Positions 1,701 through 24,985 of a stretch of 45,855 nt of DNA are shown here, one piece after another (position 1 is the first letter of the stretch; each line of letters opens with the position of its first letter). This DNA comes from a bacterium (lineage in GTDB: Bacteria; Planctomycetota; Planctomycetia; Gemmatales; Gemmataceae): assembly GCA_017308215.1 (NCBI GenBank), contig JAFKFQ010000269.1, positions 1 through 45,855 on the forward strand, written 5' to 3'. The translations under genes were made by a program, and so were the position numbers. The notes below the pieces were generated by a model, which made no database searches, was not told where the DNA came from, and saw nothing but the letters and a program-made list of their open reading frames with translations.

Positions 1701-3269
1701 ATGGGTATGGGGCCATCACCTGTCCCGGATGACGACCTCGCCGCCCTCCGGGCCGAGGCCGCGCACCAGCGGCGGGTGAACCGGGAGTTGCTCGCCACGG
1801 TGGCCGAACTGCGGATGACCATCGAGAAGCAGCAGGCCCACATCGAGCGGCTCGTCCGGATGACCTTCGGCCGGCGCTCCGAGCGGGTCACCGGCCCGAC
1901 CCTGTTCGGCGACATCTCCGACCCCGACCCTCCTCTCGCGCCGGAACCACCCGTCACACTCGACCCGCCGTCCGAATCCGCGCCCGCGAAGCGACGGGGA
2001 CACGGCCGTCGGCCCCGGCCAGCGGACCTGCCGAGGGAGCGGGTGGAGATCGACCTGACGGAGACCGAGAAGGCCTGCCCGTGTTGCCAGGCCACGCGGG
2101 TCCGGATCGGAACCTCGGTGTCCGAGCGGCTCGACTACCGACCGGCCTCCCTGTTCATCCGCCAGGTTGTGCGGCCGAGTTACGCCTGCCGCGTCTGTGA
2201 GCGCGCCGGTGACGACGCCCAAGTCATCCAACCCCCGCTCCCACCCGAGCCGATGCCGCGCGGGACCGCGGCGGCCGGGTTGCTCGCCCACATCATCGTG
2301 TCGAAGTACATCGATCACCTGCCGCTGTACCGCCAAGAGTCCATACTCGGCCGCCTCGGGTGGGAGGTGACCCGGTCCACCCTGTGCGACCAAATCATCG
2401 CCTGCGCCGGATTGCTTGAGCCGCTGTACGGGCTGATGTGCGACCGCGTCCGCCTCTCGGCCGCGCTTCACGCCGACGACACCTCGATAATCCTCCTGAC
2501 CCCGCGGCGCACCGCCCACGCATGGGTGTACGTCGGGGACGCAGCGAACCCGTACACCGTGTTCGACCTGTCCGTCGGCCGGTCCGGGGACGCCGCGGCC
2601 GCGTTCCTCAAGGGGTACAAGGGGTTCGTCCACGCCGATGGGTACACGGGATACAACCCGGTGTACGCGGGCGGGGCCACGCATGCCGGGTGCATGATGC
2701 ACGTTCGCCGGTACTTCTTCGACGCCAGACTCAACGACCCTGAGCGGGCGCACGAGGCCCTGGCCCGCATCCGCGCCCTCTACGCGGTCGAGCAGGAGGC
2801 AAAGCAGAAGGGGCTAACCGGCTCGACCCTTGCCGCGTACCGGCAACAGCACGCCGGCCCGGTACTGACGGCGTTCGCCGGCTGGCTGGCCGAGCACCGC
2901 CCGCGCGTGTTGCCGAAGTCCGCGATCGGCGAGGCGTTCACCTACGCCACGAACCAGTGGCCTACCCTCGGCGTGTACCTGACCGACGGGCGAGTGACGA
3001 TCGACAACGTGGCGGCCGAGCAAGCCATCCGACCCCTGGCCGTTGGTCGGCGGAACTGGTTACACCTGGGTGGGGACGGCGGGTTGAAGCCCACCGCCGT
3101 GCTGCTCAGCATCTGCGCCTCGATCAAGCGCCAGGGCATCAACCCGTGGGTCTACTTGAAGCACGTCCTGACGGAACTCCCGACCCGGCCGCCGAGCGCC
3201 GACCTGACCGACCTGCTCCCGGACGAGTGGCTCCGAACGCGGGTAGGATTGGCTCGGGCCGTGGGTTGA
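1701..3269 (+). CDS. tnpC: IS66 transposase TnpC
   Basis: This is the DDE transposase that performs strand cleavage and joining for the IS66 element. It is 522 aa, full length for the family. An N-terminal coiled-coil-like segment (residues about 10-50) is followed by TFGRRSERV, a four-cysteine zinc finger (CPCC near residue 120, then CRVC near 165), and the catalytic core. The acidic residues are visible: HADDT (Asp259/260), HADGYTGY (Asp313) and DNVAAEQAIRPL (Glu440). The HAGCMMHVRRYF box and the C-terminal helical tail GINPWVYLKHVLTELP are present. No disruption is visible, so the enzyme should be active. ATG at 1707 is an alternative start. Confidence 0.95.
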   Translation: MGMGPSPVPDDDLAALRAEAAHQRRVNRELLATVAELRMTIEKQQAHIERLVRMTFGRRSERVTGPTLFGDISDPDPPLAPEPPVTLDPPSESAPAKRRGHGRRPRPADLPRERVEIDLTETEKACPCCQATRVRIGTSVSERLDYRPASLFIRQVVRPSYACRVCERAGDDAQVIQPPLPPEPMPRGTAAAGLLAHIIVSKYIDHLPLYRQESILGRLGWEVTRSTLCDQIIACAGLLEPLYGLMCDRVRLSAALHADDTSIILLTPRRTAHAWVYVGDAANPYTVFDLSVGRSGDAAAAFLKGYKGFVHADGYTGYNPVYAGGATHAGCMMHVRRYFFDARLNDPERAHEALARIRALYAVEQEAKQKGLTGSTLAAYRQQHAGPVLTAFAGWLAEHRPRVLPKSAIGEAFTYATNQWPTLGVYLTDGRVTIDNVAAEQAIRPLAVGRRNWLHLGGDGGLKPTAVLLSICASIKRQGINPWVYLKHVLTELPTRPPSADLTDLLPDEWLRTRVGLARAVG

Positions 3270-7545: not shown

Positions 7546-7622
7546 GGGGGCAGAACCTTGCGAGAAACCCGCCGCCGGATGGATAAACTGACGGCTCGAC
7601 GCGGCACGCGTGCGCCGCGGCG

Positions 7623-7801
7623 TCACTTGCGGTCGTCGCCTAAACCCGTGCCCCGCGTGGGTATGGCCGACCCGAGGTCGATCCCGCCGAGGATCATGGC
7701 CAACTCCGTCGCGGTGATGCTGACCTCGGCGGTGGCGGCGGTCGGGAACCGGATCGTCCCCTTCTCCAGCCGCCGGAGGTACAGGGCGACCGGACGCTTA
7801 C
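7623..7801 (-). pseudogene. IS66 remnant: terminus fused to tnpB 3' end
   Basis: Read on the minus strand, this begins with the IS66 terminus GTAAGCGTCCGGTC and passes at once into the last third of tnpB: LYLRRLEKGTIRFPTAATA, then EVSITATELAMILGGIDLGS, then IPTRGTGLGDDRK and TGA at 7623-7625. tnpA, the first two thirds of tnpB and all of tnpC are missing, so it is an internal deletion derivative of an IS66 element close to the one at 882. The preserved outer terminus would still be recognisable by transposase supplied from the intact copy. It forms the right boundary of the composite element. Confidence 0.85.
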
Positions 7802-7809
7802 TAGTAGTC
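7802..7809. repeat. Right copy of 8-bp target-site duplication
   Basis: TAGTAGTC directly outside the right terminus at 7801, identical to 874-881. Read on the minus strand it forms the end of the codons for VQDYY of the recombinase N-terminal half. Confidence 0.88.
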
Positions 7810-8369
7810 CTGCACCTGCATCCCCACGACCGCCCCCACCCGGGCGAACGAATAGATCATGACGGCGATGACGGCCCGGTCCCGCAGGCCGACGACGGTC
7901 GTGGTGTCGATGCCGGCGAGGAGCGCCCGGGCCTCGTCTTCGTCGAGCACGGGTGTCTTGCCCTTCTTCGCGGAGTAGCTCGGGCCGCCGGACGGCGGCG
8001 GCCGGGTTCATCTCCACGACCCGGCCGACGACGAGGTAATCGAACAGCATTCTGACGGCCGCGAGGTGCTGTTTGACGGTCGGGGCCGACCGCCCGCGGG
8101 AGAGGACTTCGACGTAGGCCGCGACGTGGACCGGCCGGACCGCTTCCAGGCGGAGGCCCCGGGACTCCCTCCGCCCACCGGAAGAAGGCCCGCACCGCAC
8201 AGAGGTACGCCATCCGGGTGTTCTCGTTGCGGATGGCGGCGGTGAAGAACTCGACGAACTTCTCCCCGGCCCGGGCCCCGGCCCGGAGGATGACCGCCGG
8301 CCGCCCGGCGGCTTCCTCGCCCCGGGCCACCTCCCTCGACTTCTCCAGGACCGGCAACCCTCTGCTCAC
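7802..8369 (-). pseudogene. Tyrosine recombinase, N-terminal half (frameshifted)
   Basis: This is the DNA-binding and early catalytic half of the recombinase whose other half is at 450-881. It starts with GTG at 8369, overlapping the stop of the upstream DUF6166-like gene. Three frames are needed. The first gives ENTRMAYLCAVRAFFRWAEG (SAM-like core-binding domain). A change near 8160 leads to RGLRLEAVRPVHVAAYVEVL and SAPTVKQHLAAVRMLFDYLV. A second change near 8000 leads to KKGKTPVLDEDEARALLAGI, GLRDRAVIAVMIYSFARVGA and VGMQVQDYY. The RVGA segment corresponds to the first catalytic arginine box. Both frame changes and the transposon insertion are inactivating. Confidence 0.85.
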
Positions 8370-8764
8370 GACTCGTCCTCCCCGGCCTTGTGCCCGGCCA
8401 CCCAGAGCAGGACATCTTCGCGGGTGAGTTCCCACCGGTCGCCGTCGAGTCGAGCGATGACCTGGAACTTGAACCGCTGGTAAAGTTCCCGGGCGCGAGG
8501 GACGCCGAGTGAGTCGACGAGAATCGCCAGGGCGAGCTGGGCGGGTCCGGAGCCGCCGTACCCCCACTCGAAGCCCGACGGGGAGTGCGACCGGATTTGC
8601 GTCTGTAAGGGGAGTGGTCGGACGCGACCGGCATCGTCCTCCCGGGCGACGGTCGCGCCGCCCGCGGTCCTCACCCCGATGTATTTCGCGGCTGGCCGGT
8701 CGGTCAGGCTCGCGCCGTCTCCGTTTGGGGTGTGCTGTTGGTCAAACTCTGGTTTCATGTACAT
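8366..8764 (-). CDS. DUF6166-like protein
   Basis: A 132-aa protein with the pattern of the DUF6166 family, of unknown function, often near mobile elements. The recognisable part is residues about 25-130: YIGVRTAGG, then REDDAGRVRPLPLQTQIRSH, then SPSGFEWGYGGSGPAQLALA and YQRFKFQVIARLDGDRWELT. It starts at ATG 8764, four bases after the stop of the antitoxin-like gene; ATG at 8758 is an alternative. Its TGA overlaps the GTG of the recombinase gene. It is therefore the middle gene of an antitoxin, DUF6166, recombinase operon. No damage is visible in this gene. Confidence 0.8.
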   Translation of the reverse strand: MYMKPEFDQQHTPNGDGASLTDRPAAKYIGVRTAGGATVAREDDAGRVRPLPLQTQIRSHSPSGFEWGYGGSGPAQLALAILVDSLGVPRARELYQRFKFQVIARLDGDRWELTREDVLLWVAGHKAGEDES

Positions 8765-8768
8765 CCGT

Positions 8769-9095
8769 TCAGTAACGGTTCAAACGGCGTTCGGCCGGTA
8801 ACGCCTTCAGGACCTCCCCGTCCGGGTCTTTCGGCCGCGGCGAGTTGAATAAGTCGTCGGTCAGGAGGTGCGTGGCCGGCCGCGCGAGCCCCGTGGCGAC
8901 GAGCACCTCAAGAACAACGTTCGGGTCTTCGGCGGGCGAAATCGGGTCGATGCGGGCGACCGGCTTGCCACGGTCGGTGACGATGACGGTGTTCCCGCCC
9001 TTGACCGCGGCCAGGCACCGTGAGATGTGGGCCTTGGCCCCGCCGCTGGCGGAGGCTTCGCTTTCCAGCCTGGGTGGGCCCACCGCTGTCGCCAA
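8769..9095 (-). CDS. Phd/YefM-like antitoxin
   Basis: A protein of about 108 aa resembling the Phd/YefM antitoxin family, which bind DNA at their own promoter and neutralise a partner toxin. The family core is GGAKAHISRCLAAVKGGNTV followed by IVTDRGKPVARI (residues about 18-50). The C-terminal part (VLEVLVATGLARPATHLL, then DDLFNSPRPKD) would be the toxin-binding tail. The start is a TTG at 9095 giving MATAVGPPRLE; no better start is visible. No PIN-domain or other toxin gene lies next to it: downstream is the DUF6166-like gene. It may be an orphan, may regulate the recombinase operon, or DUF6166 may be an unrecognised partner. Confidence 0.7.
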   Translation of the reverse strand: MATAVGPPRLESEASASGGAKAHISRCLAAVKGGNTVIVTDRGKPVARIDPISPAEDPNVVLEVLVATGLARPATHLLTDDLFNSPRPKDPDGEVLKALPAERRLNRY

Positions 9096-9421
9096 GTCGT
9101 CAACGGAACTCGGCTGGTCTTCGACGCTCCGTTCCCTGTCGCGGAGGTCTCGGTGGACAAAACAACGCTTCCCGTTAGTGATTCAGGGCAGGGTATCGAA
9201 GCCACCTGCCGTTCGTTTCTCCCGCTCGATGAGGATGACCGCGGGCTTCGATCGGGCAGGTTGCAGTTTTCGGTAGCGGTCGGCCGCGTCATCAGTCAAA
9301 CTGTCCGTTCTCGTCTCGGACGAATGCCCACTCACCCTGCTCGCACGCATCGCGGGTTGGGACTTCGCCGGACTGACGCGAGATTGCGCCGTTTGAGAGT
9401 TGGTTCTGGTGGGAGGCAACC
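9096..9421. other. Divergent intergenic region
   Basis: This gap separates the minus-strand antitoxin operon from the plus-strand region 2 operon and should carry both promoters. A minus-strand open frame at 9183-9419 ends KPAVILIEREKRTAGGFDTL and looks partly protein-like, possibly the tail of a broken gene, but I cannot assign it. A good ribosome site (GGGAGG, about 9410-9415) lies in front of GTG 9422. Confidence 0.4.
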
Positions 9422-10498
9422 GTGGTTCGCATCCACGAGCCCGGCTCAGAGTACGTGCTGAACTTCTGCACGAAACACCTCGGTCGGTCGGGCGATCCGC
9501 CGCCGCCCGATGACGAGAATGCGACCGCGACCTTCCGTGGGCAGATCGCGGAAGCCTGGCGATTCCCGATAATCGGCTTGGTGCGCGAGAAGGACGTCGG
9601 ACCCAAAGCCGATGACCTCAACTTGGTCACATTCGTCTACAAGTCTCGGTCGGGGGACCAGAGTCCTGTCAGCGTCCTTGGTACGTTTGCCTCGCTGTGC
9701 GAGCCACTTCCGCTCAAGCCGGTTTTATTCGAGGGCGAAGACACGGGATACCGGTCCGTCTCGGTGACCGTTCCGAAGGGCGAGCTCCACACCTACAAGT
9801 TCCTCGTCCAGGGGAACTACTACCCGGACCCGATCAACCCGCAGCGCGTGCGATTCGGGAACGGCCGGGTGTGGTCCAGGTTCTTCACCGACGAATACCT
9901 CCAACCCCTCATCCTGGAACTGTGGGAACTCCGCTTGCTGTACCGGCTGGTCGAGCAGATCCTGCCCTTCCGAACCGCCGAGGCCGAGAACTTCCTGCAG
10001 CGTCACTACTTCAGCCTGGACAAGGGCCAGAAGGTGACGCAGATGGCGAAGGCGTTTCGGCTGGATGACTCGGTCGGCGAGGTGAACGCCATCGACAAGT
10101 TGTTGGCCCGGGAGGAGGCGCACCGGCTGGTAGATTACCGGGTGTGCCTCAAGCAGATCGACCGCGCCCTCCGGGCGCTCAACCCGTACACGGACCCCTA
10201 CCTGATACCGGCCGAACAGTACATCGAGCTGTACAACTCGATGGCGGCCAGCCGTCCCGGTGACGGGTCGGTCCCTGGATGGGACTACGCGGCTTACGAC
10301 AATCCGGCCTTCTTCATTTACCTCCTCCGCCGTCACGCCGTCAGCACCGCCTTCTCTCACCCGAAGTACGCGGGCAACGTGGGGGCAGCGGGCTGGGCCT
10401 ACCTATCCGAACGCTACGCCGACAAGGCCGGTGCCACCCTCTTCGACTGGGAACCCGCTCTGGAGAAACCTCTGGGGACGAGCGAGTACTACCGGTGA
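9422..10498 (+). CDS. CBM48-like plus gluconate dehydrogenase subunit 3-like protein
   Basis: A 358-aa protein. Residues about 75-165 look like an E-set carbohydrate-binding domain of the CBM48/glycogen-binding type: PVSVLGTFASLCEP, then VSVTVPKGELHTYKFLVQG, then YYPDPINPQRV. The remainder (170-358) is helical and resembles the small subunit 3 of gluconate 2-dehydrogenases, which pairs with a GMC flavoprotein; the next gene is indeed a GMC oxidoreductase. No Tat or Sec signal peptide is evident, whereas classical subunit 3 proteins usually carry a Tat signal, so the complex may be cytoplasmic. GTG at 9422 is supported by GGGAGG seven bases upstream. It is the first gene of a 12-gene plus-strand run. 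The domain calls are by pattern. Confidence 0.72.
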   Translation: MVRIHEPGSEYVLNFCTKHLGRSGDPPPPDDENATATFRGQIAEAWRFPIIGLVREKDVGPKADDLNLVTFVYKSRSGDQSPVSVLGTFASLCEPLPLKPVLFEGEDTGYRSVSVTVPKGELHTYKFLVQGNYYPDPINPQRVRFGNGRVWSRFFTDEYLQPLILELWELRLLYRLVEQILPFRTAEAENFLQRHYFSLDKGQKVTQMAKAFRLDDSVGEVNAIDKLLAREEAHRLVDYRVCLKQIDRALRALNPYTDPYLIPAEQYIELYNSMAASRPGDGSVPGWDYAAYDNPAFFIYLLRRHAVSTAFSHPKYAGNVGAAGWAYLSERYADKAGATLFDWEPALEKPLGTSEYYR

Positions 10499-10526
10499 TC
10501 GGACCACTCAATAAGGGGGCTAGGCC

Positions 10527-12494
10527 GTGATCGACAAGTTCGACGTCGTCATCATCGGGAGTGGGGCCGGCGGGGCGCCCATCGCGCGGCAGTTGGTCGA
10601 GAAGGGAAAGTCCGTCCTCGTACTCGAGAAGGGACCGCTCCTCCGCCCGTCCTACCAGGTGCCGGGTGAGCGAAGCGACTTCCGCAGGGACGAGGTGTAC
10701 GCGTCCGGCACCGAGAAGATCCTCCGCGTCCCGGGTGTGGCGAATGTCGGCGAGTCGTACTACAGCAGCCACGCCGAGCCCGACATCAATGACGAGCCCC
10801 ACGTCTACCGGGGCGTCAAGAAACTACCCGACGGCAGCGAGGTGCCGGCGGACTACGCCACCATCGAGGGGTACACGGCGCAGCTCGTCGGCGGCGGGAC
10901 GCAACTCTACGGCGGCGTCTCGCTCCGGTTCACCCCAACGGATCTGCGGCTGAAGTCGTTCAATGCCGGTCGCCGCACCCCGCTTCAGGACGACCCGAAT
11001 GGCGATGCTCTCGCCGGTGTTCGCGACTGGCCGGTGACGTATGACGAGCTCGAACCGTACTACGCCCTCGCCGAAGAGCTGGTCGGCATCAACGGGCAAA
11101 CCAAGAACCAGGTAAAGCCGTTCCGAACCGGTCCGGGTGGGACGCCCGGACCTGGACCTAGTGACTACTGCTACCAGCGTCCACTGGACCCGAACCCGAT
11201 CAGCGCGTTCGCACACGCGGGGATGGTGGCACTTGGTCAACGTCTCCCGGGCAACATCGAGCCGTACCGCCCCCCGCTCGCCGTGATCACCGAGGACCAC
11301 GCGCCGAGCGGGCGCCGGCTCCCCCGCGCCAAGAACGGACAGCCCGACCGGGAAGCCGCGAAGACCAGTTACGTCAACCGGTACGGGGACCCGCTCGGCC
11401 TCAAGTCGAACACCTGGGTGTCGCTGCTGAGCCCCCTCGAGGGGAATCCCAACTTCACCCTCCGGCCGAACTGCGTGGTCACTCACCTGACCTCGACCGA
11501 GGGGCGGGTGAGTCGCGTCCACTACTTCGATCCGGGCGGCGTCAGGCGGACAGTCGAGGGCAAGCTTGTCGTGGTCGCCTGCTCCGCGGTCGAGTCGGTC
11601 CGGCTGTTGATGCTGTCAGGCCAAGAGGATCCGGCGTTCGCGACGCGGATAAACTCGAGCGGGCTTCTCGGCCGCTACTTCCTGACGCACTGCTTTGGCG
11701 GAGCCCGGGCGCTCGTCCCCGGGCGGTACGACAAGTCGAAGGCGCTGGACGCCGACTGGGCGACGGACTGCTGCGGGACAGACGAGTTTCTGGAGGCGAA
11801 CGGCCTGTGGGCCGGCGCCGCGATCTACAACAACACGTCTGACCAGGCACTTCCGCTTTCCTTGTTCCGGACCCACGGGAGTACCGACCTCGACACCCTA
11901 TGGAAGGGTTTCATGTACAAGCCGCAAATGCGAGCGAACGGGTTCATCAACTTCCTGGACTACGAATTTGGCCGGGGCCTATCCGTCAGTTTCATGGCGA
12001 ACCAAGTGCCGCAGCGTGACAACCGCGTCGAGCTCCATCCCACGGTCAAGGACAAGTGGGGACGGCCCGTGGCTTATGTCTTGAAGACCTGGCACCCGCA
12101 CGATGTGTATCTCATGAAGCTCATGGCCGATCAGTGCGCGGAGATACTTCGGCTGGGTGTGGCGAGTTCACACCCAACTTATGACATTGCCAGCGACTAC
12201 GATCTTAACCGGAAGTACGATCGTAATAACGAGTATGGTGGGTCACTGGGTTCTGGCGGTGTCTACCAGGCCGAGAATGCTCTCGCCCGGATGGCCAACC
12301 ACATCCTCGGCGGGGCCCGGTTCGGGACCGACCCGACCGACTCCGTGCTCGACCCGAATTGCCGCGCCTGGGAGTTCGACAACCTGTACGTGACCGACGG
12401 ATCATTCATGCCCACGTCGGGCGGTGCGAATCCGACCCTCACCATCCAGGCGAACGCCCTGCGGGTCGCCGCCCACCTGCTCAAGAGGCTTTAG
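10527..12494 (+). CDS. GMC-family FAD oxidoreductase
   Basis: A 655-aa flavoprotein of the glucose-methanol-choline family, likely to oxidise a sugar or other alcohol. The FAD-binding Rossmann motif is FDVVIIGSGAGGAP (Gly11, Gly13, Gly16) with LVLEKG at the end of the second strand. The C-terminal GMC domain is intact: ARMANHILGGARFGTDP provides the usual active-site histidine region, and NLYVTDGSFMPTSGGANPT carries the final FAD-contact segment and the active-site Asn. The length fits gluconate or 2-keto-gluconate dehydrogenase-like large subunits. It starts at GTG 10527, 28 bases after the subunit-3-like gene, with GGGGGC as a weak ribosome site. The true substrate cannot be read from sequence; neighbours suggest a glucan-derived sugar. 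Confidence 0.92.
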   Translation: MIDKFDVVIIGSGAGGAPIARQLVEKGKSVLVLEKGPLLRPSYQVPGERSDFRRDEVYASGTEKILRVPGVANVGESYYSSHAEPDINDEPHVYRGVKKLPDGSEVPADYATIEGYTAQLVGGGTQLYGGVSLRFTPTDLRLKSFNAGRRTPLQDDPNGDALAGVRDWPVTYDELEPYYALAEELVGINGQTKNQVKPFRTGPGGTPGPGPSDYCYQRPLDPNPISAFAHAGMVALGQRLPGNIEPYRPPLAVITEDHAPSGRRLPRAKNGQPDREAAKTSYVNRYGDPLGLKSNTWVSLLSPLEGNPNFTLRPNCVVTHLTSTEGRVSRVHYFDPGGVRRTVEGKLVVVACSAVESVRLLMLSGQEDPAFATRINSSGLLGRYFLTHCFGGARALVPGRYDKSKALDADWATDCCGTDEFLEANGLWAGAAIYNNTSDQALPLSLFRTHGSTDLDTLWKGFMYKPQMRANGFINFLDYEFGRGLSVSFMANQVPQRDNRVELHPTVKDKWGRPVAYVLKTWHPHDVYLMKLMADQCAEILRLGVASSHPTYDIASDYDLNRKYDRNNEYGGSLGSGGVYQAENALARMANHILGGARFGTDPTDSVLDPNCRAWEFDNLYVTDGSFMPTSGGANPTLTIQANALRVAAHLLKRL

Positions 12495-12497
12495 ACC

Positions 12498-13856
12498 ATG
12501 GACCCGCGACTCAAAGCGATCGAAGAAGACAGGGTGGTGAAGGCACCGACACGGCCGACTGTCGGGCCGGGAGGAGTCGAGTTCGAGGCCACGTTCAACG
12601 AGAACTTCACGGCCCCGTGGAACAAGGTCTTCAAGATCGTCTTTTTCCCCGACCGGATCTACCACGCCCAGTACCTGAATGCGACCCGCAGCCCCCGGTA
12701 TCGGTACAACGTGCTCGAGGTCCGCGGGCGGGCCGACTTCATCGTCATGAAGGCGGAGGTGTACCTAGACGGCAAGTTCCTCTGCAACGCCCTCCGGCTC
12801 GAGTACCGAGCCGGGCGGTTGGCAGAACAGGTCCGGGAGCGGGGCCGGTTCCTGCGCGGGGAGGTGCTCGCCTGGGTCGAGCTGAGGCACAAGGACGCCG
12901 CTGAGAAGGACCCGCGTCTGATGCGCTACCTGAAGATGTTCTACGACGTCTACGTTGATGCGTATCAGGTCGAGATATGGGAAACCCTGGAGGCACCGCC
13001 GACCGGCTCTCACTCCTACAAGGTGCTCGACCAGATGGGGCTTCACAAGCCGATCACCGTCGTCCCCGGCTTCCGCGATGCACTCCGCAACATTCGGGAC
13101 CTTGAAGAGGTCCGCATGGCGTTCCGGGAGACCGACTTGGACCGCCCGTTCAACTACCCGATTCGCAACCGGGACAGGGACGACAACACCGTCGGCTGGG
13201 ACAACGACTACACCCGCAGCCACCAAGAACCGAACCAGCCTGCCCCGAACTCGCCCGGCAACACGATCGACGACCGGAACTACTTCGTGAACTTCCGGCG
13301 GGGCTGGGTGCTGGACGCGCGGCAGGTCCAGCCGGTCCTGTACCAGAACGCGATGATGGAGCCGGCGAGCGCCGACTTCTACCGTGGGCCGCCGCCGGCC
13401 GACCCGGGGCCGGACCGTAAGATGGACGGGTCAAAGAACGTCATGGGAATGCGGTGGATTATCCAGCGGGAGCTCGGCGGGACGATCGTATACTTCCACG
13501 AGGTGGAGCTCCCGCCCGGTGCCGTCGAGGGAACCCACCAGCACATCGGGTCCGAGGAGTTGTATTACTTCATCGAGGGCGAGGGAGTCGCCTACGTCGG
13601 AGATGGGGACGATCCGGCGGTTGACGCGAAGTACCCACTCGTCGGAAAGGACGAGAAGGATCCCATCTCCGGACACGTCAGACGAGTTCAGGTCGATCCC
13701 GAGATCTACGGCCTTGGCCCCAAGCCGTGCCGTGAGGTTCCGGTCCGCCCCGGCATCACCATTTTCACCAAGAGCGGCGGCATCCACGGGGTGCGGAACC
13801 CGAAGGGGAACTCGAAACCCCTCAAGTTCGTCGCTTTCGGATACCACTCCTCATGA
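12498..13856 (+). CDS. Cupin-domain protein with long N-terminal region
   Basis: A 452-aa protein, ATG only three bases after the GMC gene, so surely co-translated. Residues 1-250 form an unassigned alpha/beta region. The C-terminal third is a cupin: GAVEGTHQHIGSEELYYF (about 338-355) has the metal-ligand HxH and Glu of cupin motif 1, and GGIHGVRNPKGN near residue 427 supplies the histidine of motif 2. The metal site thus looks complete, so an enzymatic role (isomerase, dioxygenase or epimerase-like) is possible, as is sugar binding. I do not recognise a named family for the whole chain. It is flanked by the GMC enzyme and a second cupin protein. Confidence 0.78.
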   Translation: MDPRLKAIEEDRVVKAPTRPTVGPGGVEFEATFNENFTAPWNKVFKIVFFPDRIYHAQYLNATRSPRYRYNVLEVRGRADFIVMKAEVYLDGKFLCNALRLEYRAGRLAEQVRERGRFLRGEVLAWVELRHKDAAEKDPRLMRYLKMFYDVYVDAYQVEIWETLEAPPTGSHSYKVLDQMGLHKPITVVPGFRDALRNIRDLEEVRMAFRETDLDRPFNYPIRNRDRDDNTVGWDNDYTRSHQEPNQPAPNSPGNTIDDRNYFVNFRRGWVLDARQVQPVLYQNAMMEPASADFYRGPPPADPGPDRKMDGSKNVMGMRWIIQRELGGTIVYFHEVELPPGAVEGTHQHIGSEELYYFIEGEGVAYVGDGDDPAVDAKYPLVGKDEKDPISGHVRRVQVDPEIYGLGPKPCREVPVRPGITIFTKSGGIHGVRNPKGNSKPLKFVAFGYHSS

Positions 13857-13874
13857 CGTCCGAGGGCCCGACGG

Positions 13875-15173
13875 ATGCTGAAACTGATCACCTCCGACAC
13901 CGTGCTGCGAGTGCCGCCCGAGTCGCCACCGGACTACAACAGCAACAACCCCTTGATGAAGCTCCTCGCTATGGGCGAAGGCCAGCGGCTGGCCGCGGAG
14001 CGCCACTTCTACTTGACCGACCACCTGCAGTGTCTGGTCCCGTTCAGCCACCTCGACATGGCCGGGCCGCAGGGGAGCGACACGGACGTGCTCGACCCAA
14101 CCCAGCAGGACAGCAAGACCGACTTCCAGAAGCAGAACGTTCGTGACTTCGTGATCACCGACACCTACCTCATGCGTGGCTGGGTGACGACTCGTGCGTG
14201 GAAGGATCTGGAAGCCTGGGAGCCGATCCCCGAGAAGACCGTGCCATTCCTCAAGCTGTCGTACCGGGCGGGGCCAGATTCCAAACTGGCCGAAGCTGCG
14301 GGGGGCCTCCCTGGGAAGACGATCCGCCTCTGGCTGAAGGTGAACGGGCGGGATGCCGGGGATCTGATCCCGGTCCCGTATAACCAGTGGACGCACCGCT
14401 ACGAAATCGAGCTGTGGGGTGACCACGGCGCCGACCTGGCGCAGGTGTTCAAGGACGGCGACGAGCGCGGCCAGAACTCCCTCGCCTCGGGCGAGCTGAT
14501 CACCCGACCGGACCTCATCCGGGGATCCCTTTCGGACTTTGACCGGGAGGGAAAGGATGACGTGGACGTCCGCGCGGTCTCCCCGGACTGCGCAATGCAC
14601 CCACTCAACCCCCTCCACGTCGAGGTCGCCTGGGCCGACGAGTCGGGCACGAAATGGGACTCGCAGGACGGGGCGAACTACCACTACGAGTTCAACATGG
14701 TGGTTCGGGGGTGGGACGCATACCTGAAAGCCGGGGTCAGCGCGAACCCGCACGGCGGGGTTGGCTTCCTCCACTACCGGAACCTGCTGTCCAACTACTT
14801 CGGCTACGCCGGCAGCCGGGAGCTGGGGCGTGTGGTCGAGCCGTGGCAATTCGACGCGGCCGGGCGGAAGGACTCCGGGGAGCGGTGGGAGAACTTCTTC
14901 GCGGTCGATTACGTTGATCTGCACATTCTGAAAAACAACTGCGGCATCGGACTTCACCGGCACCGGGACAATCAGGAGTTGTTCTTCCTGCTCGATGGCC
15001 AGGCGGTCATGGTCACCGGGGACTGGTGCAAGACCCCGCAGCGGGAGCGTTGTTTCGAGGTCCGGACGCTCCAAGCCGGGCACTTCTCGCTGTTGAAGCC
15101 GGGCGGGCTACACGCGCTGATGAACGCGACCGACGCGGACATCTTCTTGCTCATGTTCGGCGGGTACGACTAG
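13875..15173 (+). CDS. Second cupin-domain protein
   Basis: A 432-aa protein with a C-terminal cupin. Motif 1 is GIGLHRHRDNQELFFLLDG (about 357-376) with HxH and Glu; motif 2 is LKPGGLHALMN (about 413-423) with the last histidine. The preceding 350 residues are unassigned and rich in aromatic residues (KTIRLWLKVNGRDAG, NYHYEFNMVVRGWDAY). Its architecture parallels the gene before it: long unique N-terminal region, then a cupin at the very end. The two may be distant paralogues or form a heteromeric complex. ATG at 13875 follows the previous stop by 18 bases with GAGGG upstream. Confidence 0.75.
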   Translation: MLKLITSDTVLRVPPESPPDYNSNNPLMKLLAMGEGQRLAAERHFYLTDHLQCLVPFSHLDMAGPQGSDTDVLDPTQQDSKTDFQKQNVRDFVITDTYLMRGWVTTRAWKDLEAWEPIPEKTVPFLKLSYRAGPDSKLAEAAGGLPGKTIRLWLKVNGRDAGDLIPVPYNQWTHRYEIELWGDHGADLAQVFKDGDERGQNSLASGELITRPDLIRGSLSDFDREGKDDVDVRAVSPDCAMHPLNPLHVEVAWADESGTKWDSQDGANYHYEFNMVVRGWDAYLKAGVSANPHGGVGFLHYRNLLSNYFGYAGSRELGRVVEPWQFDAAGRKDSGERWENFFAVDYVDLHILKNNCGIGLHRHRDNQELFFLLDGQAVMVTGDWCKTPQRERCFEVRTLQAGHFSLLKPGGLHALMNATDADIFLLMFGGYD

Positions 15174-15244
15174 CAGCACCCAGCGGCGAGTCAGTGACGT
15201 GGCGGCCTTGTCCGCACCGGGAGACGACTTCTGAGGAGCTTCGC

Positions 15245-17173
15245 ATGGCCGGCGAGACTGCCCCGATGGGGGCGAATCTGACCGCAAGCGGGGCAACGTT
15301 CCGGCTGTGGGCCCCGGCCGCACGTTCGGTGAGCGTCCGCGGCGACTTCAATGCGTGGGCCGACGTGCCACTGGAGCGGGACGCGAACGGGTACTGGTTC
15401 GCCCACGTCCCCGGGGTCAGAGAGGGGCACCAGTACAAGTACTTCGTCCGTGGGGTCGGGTCGGACGGGTTCAAGCGCGACCCGTGCGGCCGGGCGAGGA
15501 CGTGGGACCCACCGACCCCGCCACCGCCGGCCTGCTTCGTGACGAACCCGCCGACGTTCCCATGGCACGACGCCGGGTTCCGCCCGCCGGCGTTTAACGA
15601 CCTCATTCTCTACCAACTCCACATCGGGGCCTTCTTCGCGGCCGACGCCGCCGGTCACGACGTCAGAACCCGGCAGACCGGCCGATATCTCGACCTGTTG
15701 TACAAACTCGAGTATCTCGCCGAGTTGGGGGTGACCGCCGTCCAGCTCCTCCCAGTGCAGGAGTTCGAGACGATGCGGTCCCTCGGGTACAACGGCGTCG
15801 ATTTCTTCTCGCCCGAAGTGGATTACACCATCCGACCGACCGACCCGGATTTCCGGCGGTACTTCGATAAGGCGAATGAACTGCTCGGTAAGAAGGGGCT
15901 GCCGCCCTACGGGCCGAACGAGTTGAATTGCCAGACGAAGCAGCTGATGGCACTGATCGACCTGTGCCACGTGTACGGGATCGCAGTAATCTTCGACCTC
16001 GTCTACAACCATGCTGGCGGAGATTTCGGCCAGGAGAGTATGTACTTCCTGGACCTGCAGCCGACCGGGGATAACAACCGGAGCCTGTACTTCACCGACC
16101 AAGGGTGGGCCGGGGGCTTGGTGTTCGCGTACTGGAAGCGGGAGGTCCGGCAATTCCTGATCGACAACGCGGCGTTCTTCTTCAACGAGTACCACGTCGA
16201 TGGGTTCCGCTTCGACGAGGTCACCGTGATCGACCGAAACGGCGGGTGGGAGTTCCTTCAGAACCTGACCGACACGCTCCGCCACCGCAAGCCTGAGGCC
16301 CCGCTCATCGCCGAGTACTGGGCCGACCAGTCCGCGGTCCTCCGACCGAGAGGCGAGGCGGGGGCCGGGTTCGACGCCGTGGTGGATTCCGGCCTCCGTC
16401 AGGCCGTCCGCGGTGCCCTCGCGCATGCCGCGGCGGGCGGTGCGGCGCGGGTGAACTTGGACCCGGTGGCGCAGGCGCTCTACCCGAAGCACGGCGGCGG
16501 GTGGAGGTCGGTGCACCACCTAGAGAACCACGACGTGGTCCGGGTTAACAACGACTCGGACAGGCAGCCCCGCGTCCCGGCACTCGCCGACGGGTCGAAC
16601 CCGCGGTCGTGGTACGCCCGCAGCCGCTCCCGCTGGGCGACCGGCCTGCTACTCACCGCGCCCGGCATCCCGATGCTGTTCATGGGGCAGGAGTTTCTCG
16701 AGGACAAGTACTGGAGCGACAGCACGGACTACTACAAGGAGAACCTGATCTGGTGGAACGGGCTCGATTCCGACCGAGCGATGCAAGACCACCTGCGGTT
16801 CACCCGGGAGTTGATCGACCTGAGGAAACGCCTTCCCGCCCTCCGAGCCGATCCACTGAACGTCTTCCATGTCCACAACGACAACCGGGTCATCGCCTTC
16901 CACCGTTGGACCGCGGGCGGCGCGTCCGACGTCGTCGTGGTCGCAAGCCTCCGGGAAGAGACGTGGTGGGGCTACGACCTCGGTTTCCCACGGGGCGGGG
17001 AGTGGCGAGAAGCGTTTAACAGCGACGTGTACGACAACTGGTCGAACCCGTGGGCGGCCGGCAACGGGGGCCGGTTGCGGGCGAGCGGGCCGCCGATGCA
17101 CGGGATGCCGACTTCGGCACGGGTCGTGACCCCCGCGAACGGCGTGGTAGTATTCGCCGTCGGCCTAGGCTAA
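15245..17173 (+). CDS. CBM48-GH13 alpha-glucan enzyme
   Basis: A 642-aa glycoside hydrolase family 13 protein, most like branching enzymes or maltooligosyltrehalose trehalohydrolases. An N-terminal CBM48 domain (about 10-85) shows TFRLWAPAARSVSVRGDFNA and HQYKYFVRG. The GH13 barrel has all four conserved regions: VIFDLVYNHAGG (region I, about 248-260), DGFRFDEV (region II, nucleophile Asp324), LIAEYW (region III, acid/base Glu357) and ENHD (region IV, Asp430). The C-terminal beta domain ends NGVVVFAVGLG. No signal peptide is visible, so it should act on intracellular glucan. I chose ATG 15245 for the GAGGAG eight bases upstream. It is the last sugar-related gene before the EAD array. Confidence 0.9.
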   Translation: MAGETAPMGANLTASGATFRLWAPAARSVSVRGDFNAWADVPLERDANGYWFAHVPGVREGHQYKYFVRGVGSDGFKRDPCGRARTWDPPTPPPPACFVTNPPTFPWHDAGFRPPAFNDLILYQLHIGAFFAADAAGHDVRTRQTGRYLDLLYKLEYLAELGVTAVQLLPVQEFETMRSLGYNGVDFFSPEVDYTIRPTDPDFRRYFDKANELLGKKGLPPYGPNELNCQTKQLMALIDLCHVYGIAVIFDLVYNHAGGDFGQESMYFLDLQPTGDNNRSLYFTDQGWAGGLVFAYWKREVRQFLIDNAAFFFNEYHVDGFRFDEVTVIDRNGGWEFLQNLTDTLRHRKPEAPLIAEYWADQSAVLRPRGEAGAGFDAVVDSGLRQAVRGALAHAAAGGAARVNLDPVAQALYPKHGGGWRSVHHLENHDVVRVNNDSDRQPRVPALADGSNPRSWYARSRSRWATGLLLTAPGIPMLFMGQEFLEDKYWSDSTDYYKENLIWWNGLDSDRAMQDHLRFTRELIDLRKRLPALRADPLNVFHVHNDNRVIAFHRWTAGGASDVVVVASLREETWWGYDLGFPRGGEWREAFNSDVYDNWSNPWAAGNGGRLRASGPPMHGMPTSARVVTPANGVVVFAVGLG

Positions 17174-17216: not shown

Positions 17217-18449
17217 ATGAGCGAGCAAACCACTTTTGTCAAAGCTTTTGTTGAGGAGATCACTCCGTTCTTGCGGGACAAGGACAGCCGCGTCGCCGCG
17301 CTGCAGGCCGCCTTTCCGGATAACGAGCATCTGAAAGGGCTAGAGTGCGAGGGGAGCTCGACGGACAGTTTGCCGATACTCCTTAGAACCCTCGATGAAT
17401 ACGGCCGACTGAAAGACGGCCATCTCGCACTTATCGTCTTTATCGACGCCGTGAAACAATTGCGATGCGGCGTGGATGTTGAGGCCCAGCTGACTGCGTT
17501 ACAGGAGGCGTACAGCAAGGACTACGAGGCGGCCTTGGCTGCCAGAGTTGAGCGGCGACTGAAACAGACGCTGGTTCGGACTATCACATCGCGGAGCTCC
17601 CTTGTTGTCATTGCCGTCGGGTTCGCCCTCGGCATCGTACTCACGCTCCTCGTCGCGTTCGCGCCTTCCCTGTACCGGGCCGCATTTCCGCCACGCTACG
17701 AGGTCCAGTATTCTTCGCTCAGCTCTCAGCTCTCGGCCGCGATCAAGGATCCGGACGAGTCGAACGCCGGAGTCACGGTCGAGGACACGGAACTCACCGT
17801 GGACATGAGGCCCGAGGTCCAGGTCCCCATCGAGCAGCGGGACATCCGGATCAACCCGAGCACGCACTCGTATGCCATCCGGGCGGTCCGCCACGAGGAT
17901 TCGACGAAGGTATTCGTTTTGGCGTTCGCCTCGCAGCGCCAGAACATGGACGTCGTCTGCCTGAACCACCAGTACGAGGTGCGGCGGTCCCGCTCGGCCC
18001 ACATCGCGGGGAAGGGGTACGAGAACGTCTGGCACCTGCTCGTGGACATTTCCGATCGGTCGCTCAACATCCCGTTCGAGATTCAGGTGAGGACCGTGCG
18101 CTGGAACGCCTACCAGGCGGACAACGAGAACTACGTGGGGAAGATCGTCTCCAGCAGCGAGAAGCAGTTTACGGTCAGAGTGCTCATCCCCGACGGGCGG
18201 GTCTTGCAGGACAAGCCGGAGCTCCAACAGCACCCGAAATCCCCTTCCCCCCCGATCGAGGGGTTCAACGGCAGTGGCGAACTCAGTCTGTCCGGCGATC
18301 GAAAGGCCTTCGAGTGGAAAGTCGTGCAGCCCAGGCAAGGGTTCGTCTACCGGGCTAAAATCTTCTGGGAAGCCGCTCCTCAGCCGCCAATGCCGGTAAG
18401 CCCTCAGCGGTGGAAGATCGCCGGCGGCAAGTTCGAGCCGGCGGGTTGA
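17217..18449 (+). CDS. EAD-like membrane protein
   Basis: A 410-aa protein. Residues 1-100 are an all-helical module (FVKAFVEEITPFLRDKDSRV, then LPILLRTLDEYGRLKDGHLA) with the spacing of the effector-associated domains found four more times downstream, although far more diverged; such domains join partners by like-to-like contacts. A charged linker leads to one membrane helix (about 128-149: SLVVIAVGFALGIVLTLLVA). The remaining 250 residues are a mostly beta region of unknown fold on the other side of the membrane. With the positive cluster before the helix (VERRLKQTLVRTITSR), the EAD should face the cytoplasm. It could anchor or sense for the array. It starts 43 bases after the GH13 gene, and no terminator is visible between them. 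Confidence 0.68.
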   Translation: MSEQTTFVKAFVEEITPFLRDKDSRVAALQAAFPDNEHLKGLECEGSSTDSLPILLRTLDEYGRLKDGHLALIVFIDAVKQLRCGVDVEAQLTALQEAYSKDYEAALAARVERRLKQTLVRTITSRSSLVVIAVGFALGIVLTLLVAFAPSLYRAAFPPRYEVQYSSLSSQLSAAIKDPDESNAGVTVEDTELTVDMRPEVQVPIEQRDIRINPSTHSYAIRAVRHEDSTKVFVLAFASQRQNMDVVCLNHQYEVRRSRSAHIAGKGYENVWHLLVDISDRSLNIPFEIQVRTVRWNAYQADNENYVGKIVSSSEKQFTVRVLIPDGRVLQDKPELQQHPKSPSPPIEGFNGSGELSLSGDRKAFEWKVVQPRQGFVYRAKIFWEAAPQPPMPVSPQRWKIAGGKFEPAG

Positions 18450-18533
18450 CGCCGCGCGAGATCTGAGTAGTGGGCCCGCCCGGCCCGCGGCCGGACAATG
18501 TCCAGGTCGGAAGTATCCGAGGCAGGTGTCGCC

Positions 18534-19220
18534 ATGGCAGAGATGCAACCACTCGTCGAGATCGATCTCGACGTCAATGAAGACTTTCTCGAGCGCGCGA
18601 CTGGGAGCCCCCTCGCCGACGAGGAGATCCGTCTCTGGGGTCGCGAAAACAGGCTTGCCCTTTGGCGCGGGGATGTCATTCGTACCCAGTACGATCTTGG
18701 CAGGCGGGTGGTCTTCGACATTCCACTCCGATGCATCGCCCACCCGCACCCGGAGTGTCGGTTCCGGTACGTCCGGCTGATAGCGGACTTCGGGACGGGA
18801 CCGGATGGGGAGCGGCAGGAGGCGACAATCGAGGATCTGAGCCCACGCCAGGTCCTCGGCGAGGACCCGGTCAAAATCGTGACCAAGCGGGCCGGCGAGC
18901 TGTCGTTCGAACTGGAGGAGCTCAAACTTGGGCCGACGATCTCCGCCGAGCAGGAGCGAGAGTATGTGGTGTACTTCCCTGAAATCAGGGGGGCCGGGGT
19001 CGGGTTCGCCGCGGCGACGTGGGATTTTTCGACGGTTCCTGTCGCCCCACTACACGTCGATCGTGACCTGCGCGTACTGGTATCGTTCCCGGCCGGGCTG
19101 TCTGAGGTCCAAGGTCGATTCCGGATCGAGGCGAAGGTGGAGCGGCAGGGGCTTTCCGCCCTGATCCCGCTGGTCGGGAGCCGGAGTGCTCGCATCCATG
19201 TAGCTGACACAATCGGTTAG
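18534..19220 (+). CDS. Hypothetical beta-rich protein of the EAD array
   Basis: A protein of about 228 aa that I do not recognise. ATG 18534 has GAGGCAGG upstream and is preferred to ATG 18498. The translation alternates hydrophobic and polar residues as in beta sheets (CRFRYVRLIADFGTGP, RDLRVLVSFPAGLSE, QGRFRIEAKVERQG). There is no signal peptide or membrane segment. Segments such as REYVVYFPEIRGAGVGFAAA resemble accessory beta domains seen in conflict operons, but I can name no family. It lies between the EAD membrane protein and the EAD-protease and is co-directional with both. Confidence 0.6.
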   Translation: MAEMQPLVEIDLDVNEDFLERATGSPLADEEIRLWGRENRLALWRGDVIRTQYDLGRRVVFDIPLRCIAHPHPECRFRYVRLIADFGTGPDGERQEATIEDLSPRQVLGEDPVKIVTKRAGELSFELEELKLGPTISAEQEREYVVYFPEIRGAGVGFAAATWDFSTVPVAPLHVDRDLRVLVSFPAGLSEVQGRFRIEAKVERQGLSALIPLVGSRSARIHVADTIG

Positions 19221-19315
19221 CCCATTGGGTAAAGTGATGCAATCCGCGCTGCTGCGGGTACGCCGATTGTGATGATCAGCTTGCCGGGTGGGGACCGTGA
19301 GTCTGGAGGAGCTAA

Positions 19316-20410
19316 ATGAGCGTCAGGCTTAACAAAGCAGACCAGGATCAAATTATAGCGGTTGTCTCAAAGCTGCCGCAGTTCAGGAACGTGCGCGACA
19401 GGCAGCGGTTCATCGATTCGACACTCGGCGGGACCCCTGCGTCCGAGAAGATTCTGGGCATGCTCGATCTCGACGGGGAGCCGGTCTTGGTAGCGGTGGA
19501 GGTCGTTACCAAGCTCTCCCAGTTCGGCCAGGTTGAGTACGGGAGGGAGGCCCTTGGGGTTTTCCTGAACGGCGTAATCGATGCTATCGGGAGTGAACAG
19601 GCTGATAGACTCCGCGAATTGTTCAGCCGCTATGCCCTCGGCGGCTCGACACCCCCACAGCCACCCGTCGGTCCCTGGCCCAAAGAGCTCACGAACTTCA
19701 CCCAGGAAAAGGTGATAGGCGAGAACACGATGTTCCCGGTCCACGTACTGCAGCGGGCAATCGAATCCGCCCGCTCGGTGGTTCACCTCACCGTTGCCTC
19801 TGCTCGTCCCCCGTTTCTCTGGTCTGGCACAGGGTTTCTGGTTGCCAACGACCTCGTGATGACGAACCACCATAACGTCAGTTCCAAGGAGGAAGCAGCT
19901 CGAACGACTGTAACTTTCAACTATCAGCTCGGCGTCGACGGGAAGCCATGTCCGACGACCGAGCAAACGTTGGCCGAGGGCTCTCTGCTGTGTGCCAACC
20001 AAGATCTTGACTACGCGATTCTTCGATTGCCGGTTCCGGCCGATGTACCGGCGCTGGCGCTCGGGAGGATCGCACCACCCAACGGCGACCCGGTCACCAT
20101 CATTCAGCATCCTGGCGGCCACCTCAAACAGATTTCACTAAGGAACAACGCCGTCCAGTTCTCGGACTCGCGGCGCATTCTCTACACCACGAGCACCGAG
20201 CGGGGCGCGTCGGGCGCGCCCCTGCTGGCACACACCACGTTTGAAGTTGTCGGACTGCACCACGGTGGCGGGGAGCTCGCGGATCCGACCAGTGGGAACC
20301 CCAGCTATCGAAATGAAGCGATCGCGATGGCCGCGATCCTCGGCGATCTGAAGAGCCGGTGTGCAGCAATCTATGAGAGGCTGACCGGCGTGGCCAAACC
20401 CGTCGCGTAG
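19316..20410 (+). CDS. EAD-trypsin-like serine protease
   Basis: A 364-aa two-domain protein. Residues 1-107 are an effector-associated domain (EKILGMLDLDGEPVLVAVEV, LSQFGQVEYGREALGVFL). Residues 140-350 are a trypsin-fold protease: SGTGFLVANDLVMTNHHNV puts the catalytic histidine at 186, QDLDYAILRL gives Asp232, and TERGASGAPL gives Ser299 in GxSGxP. The triad is complete, so it should be active. EAD-trypsin proteins are known effectors of bacterial conflict systems, thought to be recruited by EAD-bearing NTPases; two such NTPases are encoded 1.5 and 4.6 kb downstream. No signal peptide, so the target should be cytoplasmic. ATG 19316 has GGAGGAGC seven bases before it. Confidence 0.88.
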   Translation: MSVRLNKADQDQIIAVVSKLPQFRNVRDRQRFIDSTLGGTPASEKILGMLDLDGEPVLVAVEVVTKLSQFGQVEYGREALGVFLNGVIDAIGSEQADRLRELFSRYALGGSTPPQPPVGPWPKELTNFTQEKVIGENTMFPVHVLQRAIESARSVVHLTVASARPPFLWSGTGFLVANDLVMTNHHNVSSKEEAARTTVTFNYQLGVDGKPCPTTEQTLAEGSLLCANQDLDYAILRLPVPADVPALALGRIAPPNGDPVTIIQHPGGHLKQISLRNNAVQFSDSRRILYTTSTERGASGAPLLAHTTFEVVGLHHGGGELADPTSGNPSYRNEAIAMAAILGDLKSRCAAIYERLTGVAKPVA

Positions 20411-20476
20411 CAGATATCGCCCCCGCAGGTGTGGAGGTCATGACTGGCCACCCTCACCGCAGCCAGGAGCAATCAC

Positions 20477-21865
20477 GTGAACGGTCGGCACCCGGGCCTG
20501 GTCACCGAGGTGATTAACGCGGTCAAGCCTCTGCTGACACAGGAGAGGCGGCGGGGGCTGCTGCAGGGGGCGTTCGCCGGCGAGGCCGGCGAGCGTGTGC
20601 TTGACCTGATCGACTTCACGGGCGCGAACGACACGTTCGCCCCCACCCTCGTCCGCCAGCTCCTGCTGTTCGGCGAGGTCGAGCCGGGCCAGCCGGCGCT
20701 CGTCGCCCTCCTGCAGTCCCTCGCCGCGGGCCTCGGACTCGACCGGCGGGCCCACTTCAATGACCTGACCGAGCGGCTGAGTGATTACCTGCCGCGGGAT
20801 CCGGAGAGACTCCGCGAGCTCGTTGATGAGCTGCAGATCAGGGTAACAGCTCCTACGACTGCCCAAGCGACGGGGAGTGGAACGGAGCTGCCGGTACGAA
20901 TCGAGCCCGTATCCGGCGTGATCTGGTTCGGACGCCAAAGGGGAGAGGAGAAAGACCTTAAGGGCGGCCGGTTCGGGGGGGCGTTGACCGTCCGCGCCAG
21001 CGTGTCAAGCACAAGCACCGGCGTCCGGGTGGCCGCGATCGAACTGGATTGCATCAACGAGCAGGGAGTGTATGCCGCACCCCTCAAACAGACGACTGAA
21101 CTCGTCACCGACACCTCCGGAAAGGTTACCACCCAGCCGCTTGCCACCCTCGACGGGCAGTTCGTGCAGGAGATATATTTATCGCCTGGGAGTTCGCGGG
21201 TGCTCGGGGCGATAGCCGAATTCGCGGCGCGGACCACTCGGTATCCTTACGAGTGGGACTACGGCTTCCTCCGTTTACGCGGATTCGGCCCCGACCGGGG
21301 GGTGTTGTTGGATGTGACGTACCGGTACAAGGGGGCACGATCGATCGAGCGGTCGGCACCTCCCGACGTCCCCTTCTTCAGCAACGGTCAACTTCAACTG
21401 CTCCTCGACCTCGGCTACATGAACACTCGCGAGGTAGACGCCCTAAAATCGATTCCACCCGATGAACGGATGCTACTCCTTTGGGACGCGAGTTACGAGT
21501 GCTGGCGGGACCCCGGTGCTCGGAAGGTAGTGGATGAGGCATGGTCTCGCTTGCACCCGAAGACGGAAGGCACGTACCTGAAAACTCGAGGGCCGATCTT
21601 CCCTCCACCCTACCCCTCCGGGCTCGGCCCGCAGAGACAGGCCCTTTTCGAACTGCAGGATGGCCAGCACGATGTCGTTCTGCCTTCCCGCCCCGTACGA
21701 CCTGACTGTGTCTGGGTCGTCGTCCGCGGCATCTACCTCGATGACTGCAGGGCGGAGGACAGGCGGGTGCATTTGTCACTCACTGGCACCGGTTTTGACG
21801 TGCAGGTGGTCTACATCGAAGCCACCGATGCGCCCGACCGCCGTCCGGGATTGACCCAGGAGTGA
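20477..21865 (+). CDS. EAD protein with unknown C-terminal domains
   Basis: A 462-aa protein. The first 100 residues are an EAD nearly identical to those at 21870 and 24986 (LIDFTGANDTFAP, LFGEVEPGQPALVALLQSLA). It shares with the 24986 protein the extension LSDYLPRDPERLRELVDEL (about 100-120). The rest is unassigned: a beta-rich part (150-280) and a second part (290-450: LLLDLGYMNTREVDALKSIP, ERMLLLWDASYECW). The final part may be an output or binding domain. GTG 20477 is supported by CAGGAGC. The following gene starts four bases after its stop, so the two are co-translated. Function unknown beyond the expected EAD contacts. Confidence 0.75.
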   Translation: MNGRHPGLVTEVINAVKPLLTQERRRGLLQGAFAGEAGERVLDLIDFTGANDTFAPTLVRQLLLFGEVEPGQPALVALLQSLAAGLGLDRRAHFNDLTERLSDYLPRDPERLRELVDELQIRVTAPTTAQATGSGTELPVRIEPVSGVIWFGRQRGEEKDLKGGRFGGALTVRASVSSTSTGVRVAAIELDCINEQGVYAAPLKQTTELVTDTSGKVTTQPLATLDGQFVQEIYLSPGSSRVLGAIAEFAARTTRYPYEWDYGFLRLRGFGPDRGVLLDVTYRYKGARSIERSAPPDVPFFSNGQLQLLLDLGYMNTREVDALKSIPPDERMLLLWDASYECWRDPGARKVVDEAWSRLHPKTEGTYLKTRGPIFPPPYPSGLGPQRQALFELQDGQHDVVLPSRPVRPDCVWVVVRGIYLDDCRAEDRRVHLSLTGTGFDVQVVYIEATDAPDRRPGLTQE

Positions 21866-21869
21866 CGCC

Positions 21870-24224: not shown

Positions 24225-24249
24225 GAGGCAACCGCACCGGGGAAGGGCG

Positions 24250-24924
24250 ATGAAGCTGCTCATCATGGACATCGAGGGGACGTTGTTTCAGACGCACGTC
24301 CGCCTTGAGGGCACGAAGCTCAACTCGACTATCTGGCAAGGCATCGCGCACAGACTCGGGGCCGACGCGACGAGGGAAGAAGTCGCTACCCACGAGAAAT
24401 GGCATTCCAACGGATACCGTAGCTATCTGGAGTGGATGAAGGAGACGATCCAGATCCACCTTCGTTACGGACTCACCCATTCGACGTTCGGCGAGCTCAT
24501 CGCTGCGGCGGCGTACAATCCCGGTGTCGTGACGACGCTCCAGCGGATCGACCGGACGAGGTTCGAGCCGGTCCTCGTTTCGGGCGGGTTCAGGGAACTG
24601 GCGGCACGGGCCCAGCGCGAGCTCAGGATCCACCACGCGTTCGCCGCTTGCGAGTACTTGTTTGACGAGGAAGGCCAACTCGTCTCGTACAACCTCCTCC
24701 CATGCGACTTCGCTGGGAAGTACGACTTCATCCTGCTGATGCTGCGAGAGTATGGACTAGGCCAGGACGACTGGGTGTTCGTTGGAGACGGCCTGAACGA
24801 CGTGCCGATCGCTCAGCGGGCACCGATCTCGATTGCCTACAACGCCCATCCCGAGTTGCAAAAGATTGCGACATATTCGATCGATAACTTCCTTGAGTTG
24901 CTCACGATTTTGGAACGGGCGTAG
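24250..24924 (+). CDS. HAD-superfamily phosphatase (PSPase-like)
   Basis: A 224-aa HAD phosphatase-like protein. Motif 1 is IMDIEGTLF: the nucleophile Asp7 is present, but the usual second aspartate is Glu9 (DxE in place of DxD). Motif 2 is PVLVSGG, the lysine of motif 3 is in AGKYDFILL, and motif 4 is FVGDGLNDVPIA. A helical cap lies at about 30-100. The pattern is closest to phosphoserine phosphatase-like enzymes, but the Glu in motif 1 is unusual and may alter activity or substrate. It sits between two EAD-NTPase genes, 25 bases after the first, an odd place for a housekeeping enzyme. It may process a nucleotide or phosphoprotein signal for the array. Confidence 0.82.
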   Translation: MKLLIMDIEGTLFQTHVRLEGTKLNSTIWQGIAHRLGADATREEVATHEKWHSNGYRSYLEWMKETIQIHLRYGLTHSTFGELIAAAAYNPGVVTTLQRIDRTRFEPVLVSGGFRELAARAQRELRIHHAFAACEYLFDEEGQLVSYNLLPCDFAGKYDFILLMLREYGLGQDDWVFVGDGLNDVPIAQRAPISIAYNAHPELQKIATYSIDNFLELLTILERA

Positions 24925-24985
24925 TGTTACACGGCCCAAGTCCAGCAGCCATCGCCTGGCTCCCTCAGCACTCAGGAGCTACATC

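Follow-up and report, generated by a model that had tools for sequence, protein, structure and literature searches.

The gene at positions 9422-10498 (plus strand) of the window, meaning here the whole 45,855-nucleotide stretch of Gemmataceae DNA that was analysed, encodes a protein joining an E-set beta sandwich of the CBM48/AMPK-beta type to a helical domain related to subunit 3 of gluconate 2-dehydrogenase (G3). This domain architecture is real, and the gene heads a five-gene cassette that continues with a GMC oxidoreductase, two cupins and a GH13 protein. The product would pair with a GMC protein as the smaller component of a two-component flavin oxidoreductase, most likely a cytosolic one. 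The G3/CBM48-like architecture with its cassette was not found described in the open-licence papers searched, and nothing was found there on a glucoside 3-dehydrogenase composed of GMC and a small subunit; the papers met on related terms concern biosensors, direct electron transfer and a root-exudate transcriptome. The open reading frame runs from GTG 9422 to TGA 10498 (358 aa), and the ribosome-binding-like sequence GGGAGG just 5' of the GTG is a plausible RBS. Besides the frame itself, the gene is characterized by sub-threshold Pfam matches and by a family of eight members, the window protein and seven relatives, with overall identities down to 39%.

In Pfam the window protein matches AMPK1_CBM at residues 81-139 (14.8 bits, below the cut-off of 26.8) and Gluconate_2-dh3 at residues 222-326 (14.5 bits, below the cut-off of 23.4); these two matches are weak and non-overlapping, and lie at the places where a preliminary description had put a carbohydrate-binding fold and a subunit-3-like part. 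The family scan, which took in six of the eight members (all but L017 and L026), matched Gluconate_2-dh3 (PF13618) in all six, with two scores (27.2 and 26.3 bits) exceeding the cut-off, and AMPK1_CBM in four, at best with 21.8 bits (E=2.3e-4) and never above 26.8. The gene is highly diverged, as is apparent from a PF13618 profile search of the window's own genome at E 0.001, which returned no match, the G3/CBM48-like gene itself included. From model, structural matches and profile match, the E-set is placed at residues 63-162 (9608-9907), and the G3-like helical domain, from Pfam and profile matches, at residues 164-358 (9911-10498). The N-terminal segment, residues 1-62 (9422-9607), carries invariant C16, K18, L20, R22, R39, E44 and W46-P49 in a strongly conserved CxKxLxR ... 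ExWRFP pattern, for which there was no match to a known family.

Modelled alone and template-free from six sequences, residues 63-162 are predicted to form eight strands with high confidence (mean pLDDT 89.4, pTM 0.78). Foldseek with this isolated model returned AMPK beta-subunit chains first (E=1.7e-6), and VIA-align gave Z 12.7 against AMPK beta1 (6c9g; rmsd 2.4, 88 residues), 12.5 against the feruloyl esterase CBM48 (8bbp, 6rzn; rmsd 2.4, 88 residues, 32% identity) and 12.4 against the plant glucan phosphatase (3nme, 4pyh; rmsd 2.3, 93 residues); as structural matches of the model these three are tied. By sequence profile the feruloyl esterase CBM48 ranks first (E=0.005). It resembles the window protein in having a CBM48 joined to an enzyme part, the difference being that the window module is fused to an oxidoreductase partner subunit and not to an esterase. 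The model of the whole protein, from five sequences, is poor (pLDDT 47), its strands at 66-155 being followed by helices at 167-348, and its Foldseek list is headed by starch- or glycogen-binding proteins at E 2.7e-3 and above. As modelled, the fold is of the CBM48/AMPK1_CBM type. The preliminary description had proposed such a fold, and comparison of the predicted structure with CBM48 recovered the sandwich it anticipated, no predicted fold without one being obtained; the domain it had placed at residues 75-165 is present, with limits of about 63-160 instead. A chance fold match is rejected, the isolated domain being confident without templates and its top matches being AMPK-beta and CBM48 proteins. 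A recent copy from the CBM48 of the cassette GH13 is unsupported, the profile-profile comparison with the E-set being not significant (1.4% probability, E 0.037).

The helical fold of the G3 part is seen in the low-confidence full-length model. Since this part alone found no significant match among PDB sequences (best E 0.85, the FAD-glucose dehydrogenase small subunit being absent), its membership of G3 rests on the Pfam matches and on a profile match to a canonical subunit 3 (Mesorhizobium, P0002), extending over 34 columns around HPKYAGN of the window protein (10358-10378) and its canonical counterpart DPIYGGN (E=2.9e-4). These two lines bear out the subunit-3-like helical part that had been suggested to follow the E-set. 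The C-terminal H..(H/D)PxYxGN..W signature is conserved in the family alignment, with the exception of L008, which has Asn for Tyr, and the Microvirga relative is annotated as a "gluconate 2-dehydrogenase subunit 3 family protein". Like the PF13618 small subunit of FAD-glucose dehydrogenase, the window protein has a helical domain with a YxGN-type motif and is encoded directly upstream of a GMC subunit gene; unlike it, the window protein adds the E-set and the N-terminal segment and shows no export signal.

The GMC-family FAD oxidoreductase (10527-12494, plus strand, identified by Pfam) has conserved His592 and Asn635. Its gene adjoins the G3 gene in all eight loci, which upholds the GMC partner proposed next door, and the His and Asn are likewise intact in all eight. 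The GMC stretch that aligns to the Cys cluster of FAD-glucose dehydrogenase reads VNRYGDPLG-x-KS and has Cys in none of the eight; the 3Fe-4S Cys ligands of the three-subunit, TAT-exported GMC dehydrogenase are absent from it throughout. A simple RR and hydropathy scan detected no TAT signal (twin Arg, then a hydrophobic stretch) at the N-terminus of any of the eight members, nor is there a TAT-like signal in residues 1-62 of the window protein. In L007 and L005 an RR lies upstream of the likely start, but no hydrophobic stretch goes with it, and the open frame of L004 extends only a single codon ahead of the start, too little for a signal to fit. A short hydrophobic stretch, without RR, does lie close to the start of L017, so location may differ between members. 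No multi-heme cytochrome c gene is present among the five genes of the cassette or in the Microvirga stretch, which has 18 annotated features. For FAD-glucose dehydrogenase, PMC9727119 describes the small subunit as a TAT hitch-hiker that binds the catalytic subunit, whose 3Fe-4S cluster passes electrons to a heme subunit. The missing TAT signal, together with a GMC protein devoid of the Cys cluster of its cytochrome-linked relatives, suggests that the G3-GMC pair is probably cytosolic, a location read from sequence features, and the electron acceptor may be oxygen or a soluble carrier.

A plain G3-GMC pair on a plasmid of Mesorhizobium loti NZP2037 (L014) offers a comparison. It likewise has subunit 3 followed by GMC, the GMC proteins are 36% identical, and its Fe-S stretch also lacks Cys. 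It differs in that its subunit 3, of 219 aa, has no E-set match, and in its surroundings, where sugar ABC transporter, isomerase/epimerase and Gfo/Idh genes take the place of cupins and GH13.

Downstream of the GMC gene, all on the plus strand, lie cupin protein 1 (12498-13856, identified by Pfam), cupin protein 2 (13875-15173, Pfam Cupin_2 below cut-off) and the GH13 protein with CBM48 (15026-17173), whose true start, judged from where homology to relatives begins, is probably near 15245, past the end of cupin 2. The HxH...E...H pattern is intact for each cupin in all eight members, the window's included, and the Asp-Glu-Asp triad of GH13 in all seven proteins compared, again with the window's among them. 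We take the catalytic or metal-binding roles of these residues, and of the GMC His and Asn, to be those customary for their families. The GH13 protein fits no NCBIfam equivalog, the best being TreZ at 197.6 bits (cut-off 538.8), with GlgB at 195.5 bits (cut-off 741). The two cupin proteins (12498-15173) look like distant paralogues of about 23% identity, and roughly 330 residues before their cupin core match no Pfam family.

The first four genes of the cassette occur together in all eight loci, and GH13 is adjacent in seven of them, one rearranged locus included; a GH13 carrying its own CBM48 in the same run, as first described, is thus a recurrent linkage. The window's gene order is found also in G008 (L007), Bradyrhizobium sp. 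URHD0069 (L004), Rhodoplanes tepidamans (L005), Microvirga plasmid pMVF16-5 (L006) and G1508 (L026). In G1075 (L017) the GH13 gene (14328-16412) lies inverted on the opposite flank of the G3 gene, from which it diverges, but it has been retained, which suggests functional coupling and not simple hitch-hiking. G023 (L008) has the four-gene cassette (7613-12907) with no GH13 within the 20 kb fetched; GH13 genes elsewhere in its genome (best 215.6 bits) make a remote GH13 partner possible.

The cassette is rare and sporadic. In genome sets that overlap, and with the query or centre genome counted, relatives were found in 3 of 102 genomes of the window's order, in 2 of 294 of a phylum sample (one an unrelated esterase) and, around the Bradyrhizobium, in 4 of 391 genomes of its family (one partial), 1 of 397 of its order and 2 of 385 of its class. 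One of 72,556 plasmid records holds a relative; scans that reach close relatives only gave two loci in genome contigs and none in viral contigs. An E-set-only match in G224 (L010) is the front of an esterase-like protein, as read from its translation, and not a family member, and the match in G819 (26 bits), beside a distant GMC, is partial only. Identity of the window protein reaches 69% with its Bradyrhizobium and Rhodoplanes relatives but 48% with the G023 protein of its own family, no relative occurs in the five other genomes of the window's genus, and the tree of the eight members sets the window protein, L007, L004 and L005 apart from the other members at a support of 1.000; together these features indicate horizontal transfer, and the cassette has probably moved in this way. 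The window's contig, from an assembly of 766 contigs, may have been misbinned, but L017 and L026 sit on contigs near whole-genome size and the G023 assembly has 4 contigs. Judged by its gene content, the window's host may be planctomycete-like.

The surroundings of the cassette hold some further features. An IS66-family transposase upstream (1701-3269) is in line with a mobile region. Directly after the cassette (17217-26542) come five EAD8 (effector-associated domain 8) proteins in a run, of which one (19316-20410) is joined to a trypsin-like protease and two contain AAA ATPase-like parts, a run that looks like a conflict or signalling cluster. A WD40-repeat protein of 1492 aa is encoded farther on, on the minus strand (29782-34260).

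With the AMPK beta glycogen-binding domain (PF16561, CBM48) the E-set shares the fold and, in part, the Y-K-F strand and the DP; it differs from that domain at the W100, W133 and N150 positions, which are changed in the window family. Profile alignment with AMPK beta2 brings the conserved Trp of the FNNW stretch to L92 and the second Trp to Y133 of the window protein. Across the eight members, with positions assigned by sequence alignment, the W100 equivalent is Leu in all, no member has Trp at the W133 equivalent (residues Y, F, P, Y, F, S, A, Y; aromatic in five), the K126 equivalent is Lys in four and the N150 equivalent is Asn in none; W133, K126 and N150 are contacts in AMPK. The E-set of G023 (L008) has Gln at the K126 position and Pro at the W133 position. 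In the CBM48 of the cassette GH13 the Trp is kept in seven of seven.

W100 (beta1) is critical for glycogen binding, and W100A serves as the disrupting mutation in work on AMPK and glycogen (PMC8431764). The CBM48 modules attached to CE1 esterases, among the nearest relatives of the E-set, reportedly bind no starch and pack on the catalytic domain, one of their sheets facing its active site (PMC8040265). Loss of the W100 site and of the other contacts, with relatives in CE1 esterases that are reported not to bind starch, disfavours a simple tether, and the preliminary proposal that the oxidoreductase is tethered to glycogen finds no support.

The reading that we favour, with confidence about evenly balanced, is that the protein is a GMC partner subunit, most likely a cytosolic one, whose E-set docks on GMC and shapes substrate access. 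The C-terminal G3 domain would be expected to wrap and stabilise GMC in the manner of the small subunit of FAD-glucose dehydrogenase. The E-set, placed N-terminally where classical small subunits carry the export signal, would by analogy dock on GMC and narrow or extend the opening through which a sugar or oligosaccharide substrate enters, and would not serve to hold glycogen through an AMPK-type Trp site. The GMC enzyme would act in one pathway with the two metal cupins and with the GH13, which would use alpha-glucans or alpha-glucosides. In favour of this reading, the glucan contacts are lost while 13 E-set positions are invariant. Against it stand the poor full-length model, the GH13 linkage, which fits alpha-glucan binding equally well, the aromatic residue at the W133 position in five members and Lys at K126 in four, and the hydrophobic stretch of L017.

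An E-set that works as an alpha-glucan-binding module, anchoring GMC on glycogen or maltooligosaccharides alongside the CBM48 of GH13, is possible but less likely than a role in docking and substrate access, and taken by itself we regard it as unlikely. It draws on the match to AMPK-beta glycogen-binding domains, on the adjacency of a CBM48-bearing GH13 and on the K126 Lys and W133-position aromatics that half or more of the members retain, from which some sugar-binding character may remain; another binding face, or weak binding, is also possible on the aligned sequences. It is opposed by the invariant Leu at W100, by the absence of Trp at either site and of Asn at N150, by the disruptive use of W100A, and by L008, which keeps the E-set with no adjacent GH13.

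Less probable still is that the E-set uses another face to bind a different glycan or a glycoside substrate, a role proposed for the CBM48 of xylan esterases: the feruloyl esterase CBM48 leads the sequence matches and shares first place among the structural ones, and docking in the CBM48-CE1 family put xylan on a sheet face, but the same source records no affinity for the glycans tested (PMC8040265), and no xylan-related gene was seen in the cassette. That the E-set is vestigial, or serves oligomerisation in general, with neither ligand nor active-site role, is the least probable reading, for although two CBM48-CE1 modules hold on to each other in a crystal dimer (PMC8040265), the E-set is kept in all eight members across identities as low as 39%, with 13 of its 98 positions invariant, several of these in the DPxNxQ / WSRFFT stretch leading into the G3 domain.

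The E-set is a further example of a CBM48 fold that has seemingly lost its Trp site. A more far-reaching idea, to which we give little credence, is that of a mobile cytosolic glucan-oxidation cassette in which the E-set presents alpha-glucan chain ends, released or remodelled by GH13, to the GMC active site, and the cupins process the oxidised sugar; if true, the cassette would be an intracellular oxidative route for storage glucan. Subunit-3 proteins are known to stabilise GMC dehydrogenases and to act as hitch-hikers in their export. A member of this class that bears a glucan-binding-type module, has no visible export signal and belongs to a five-gene set points to an undescribed pathway of sugar oxidation whose parts are testable.
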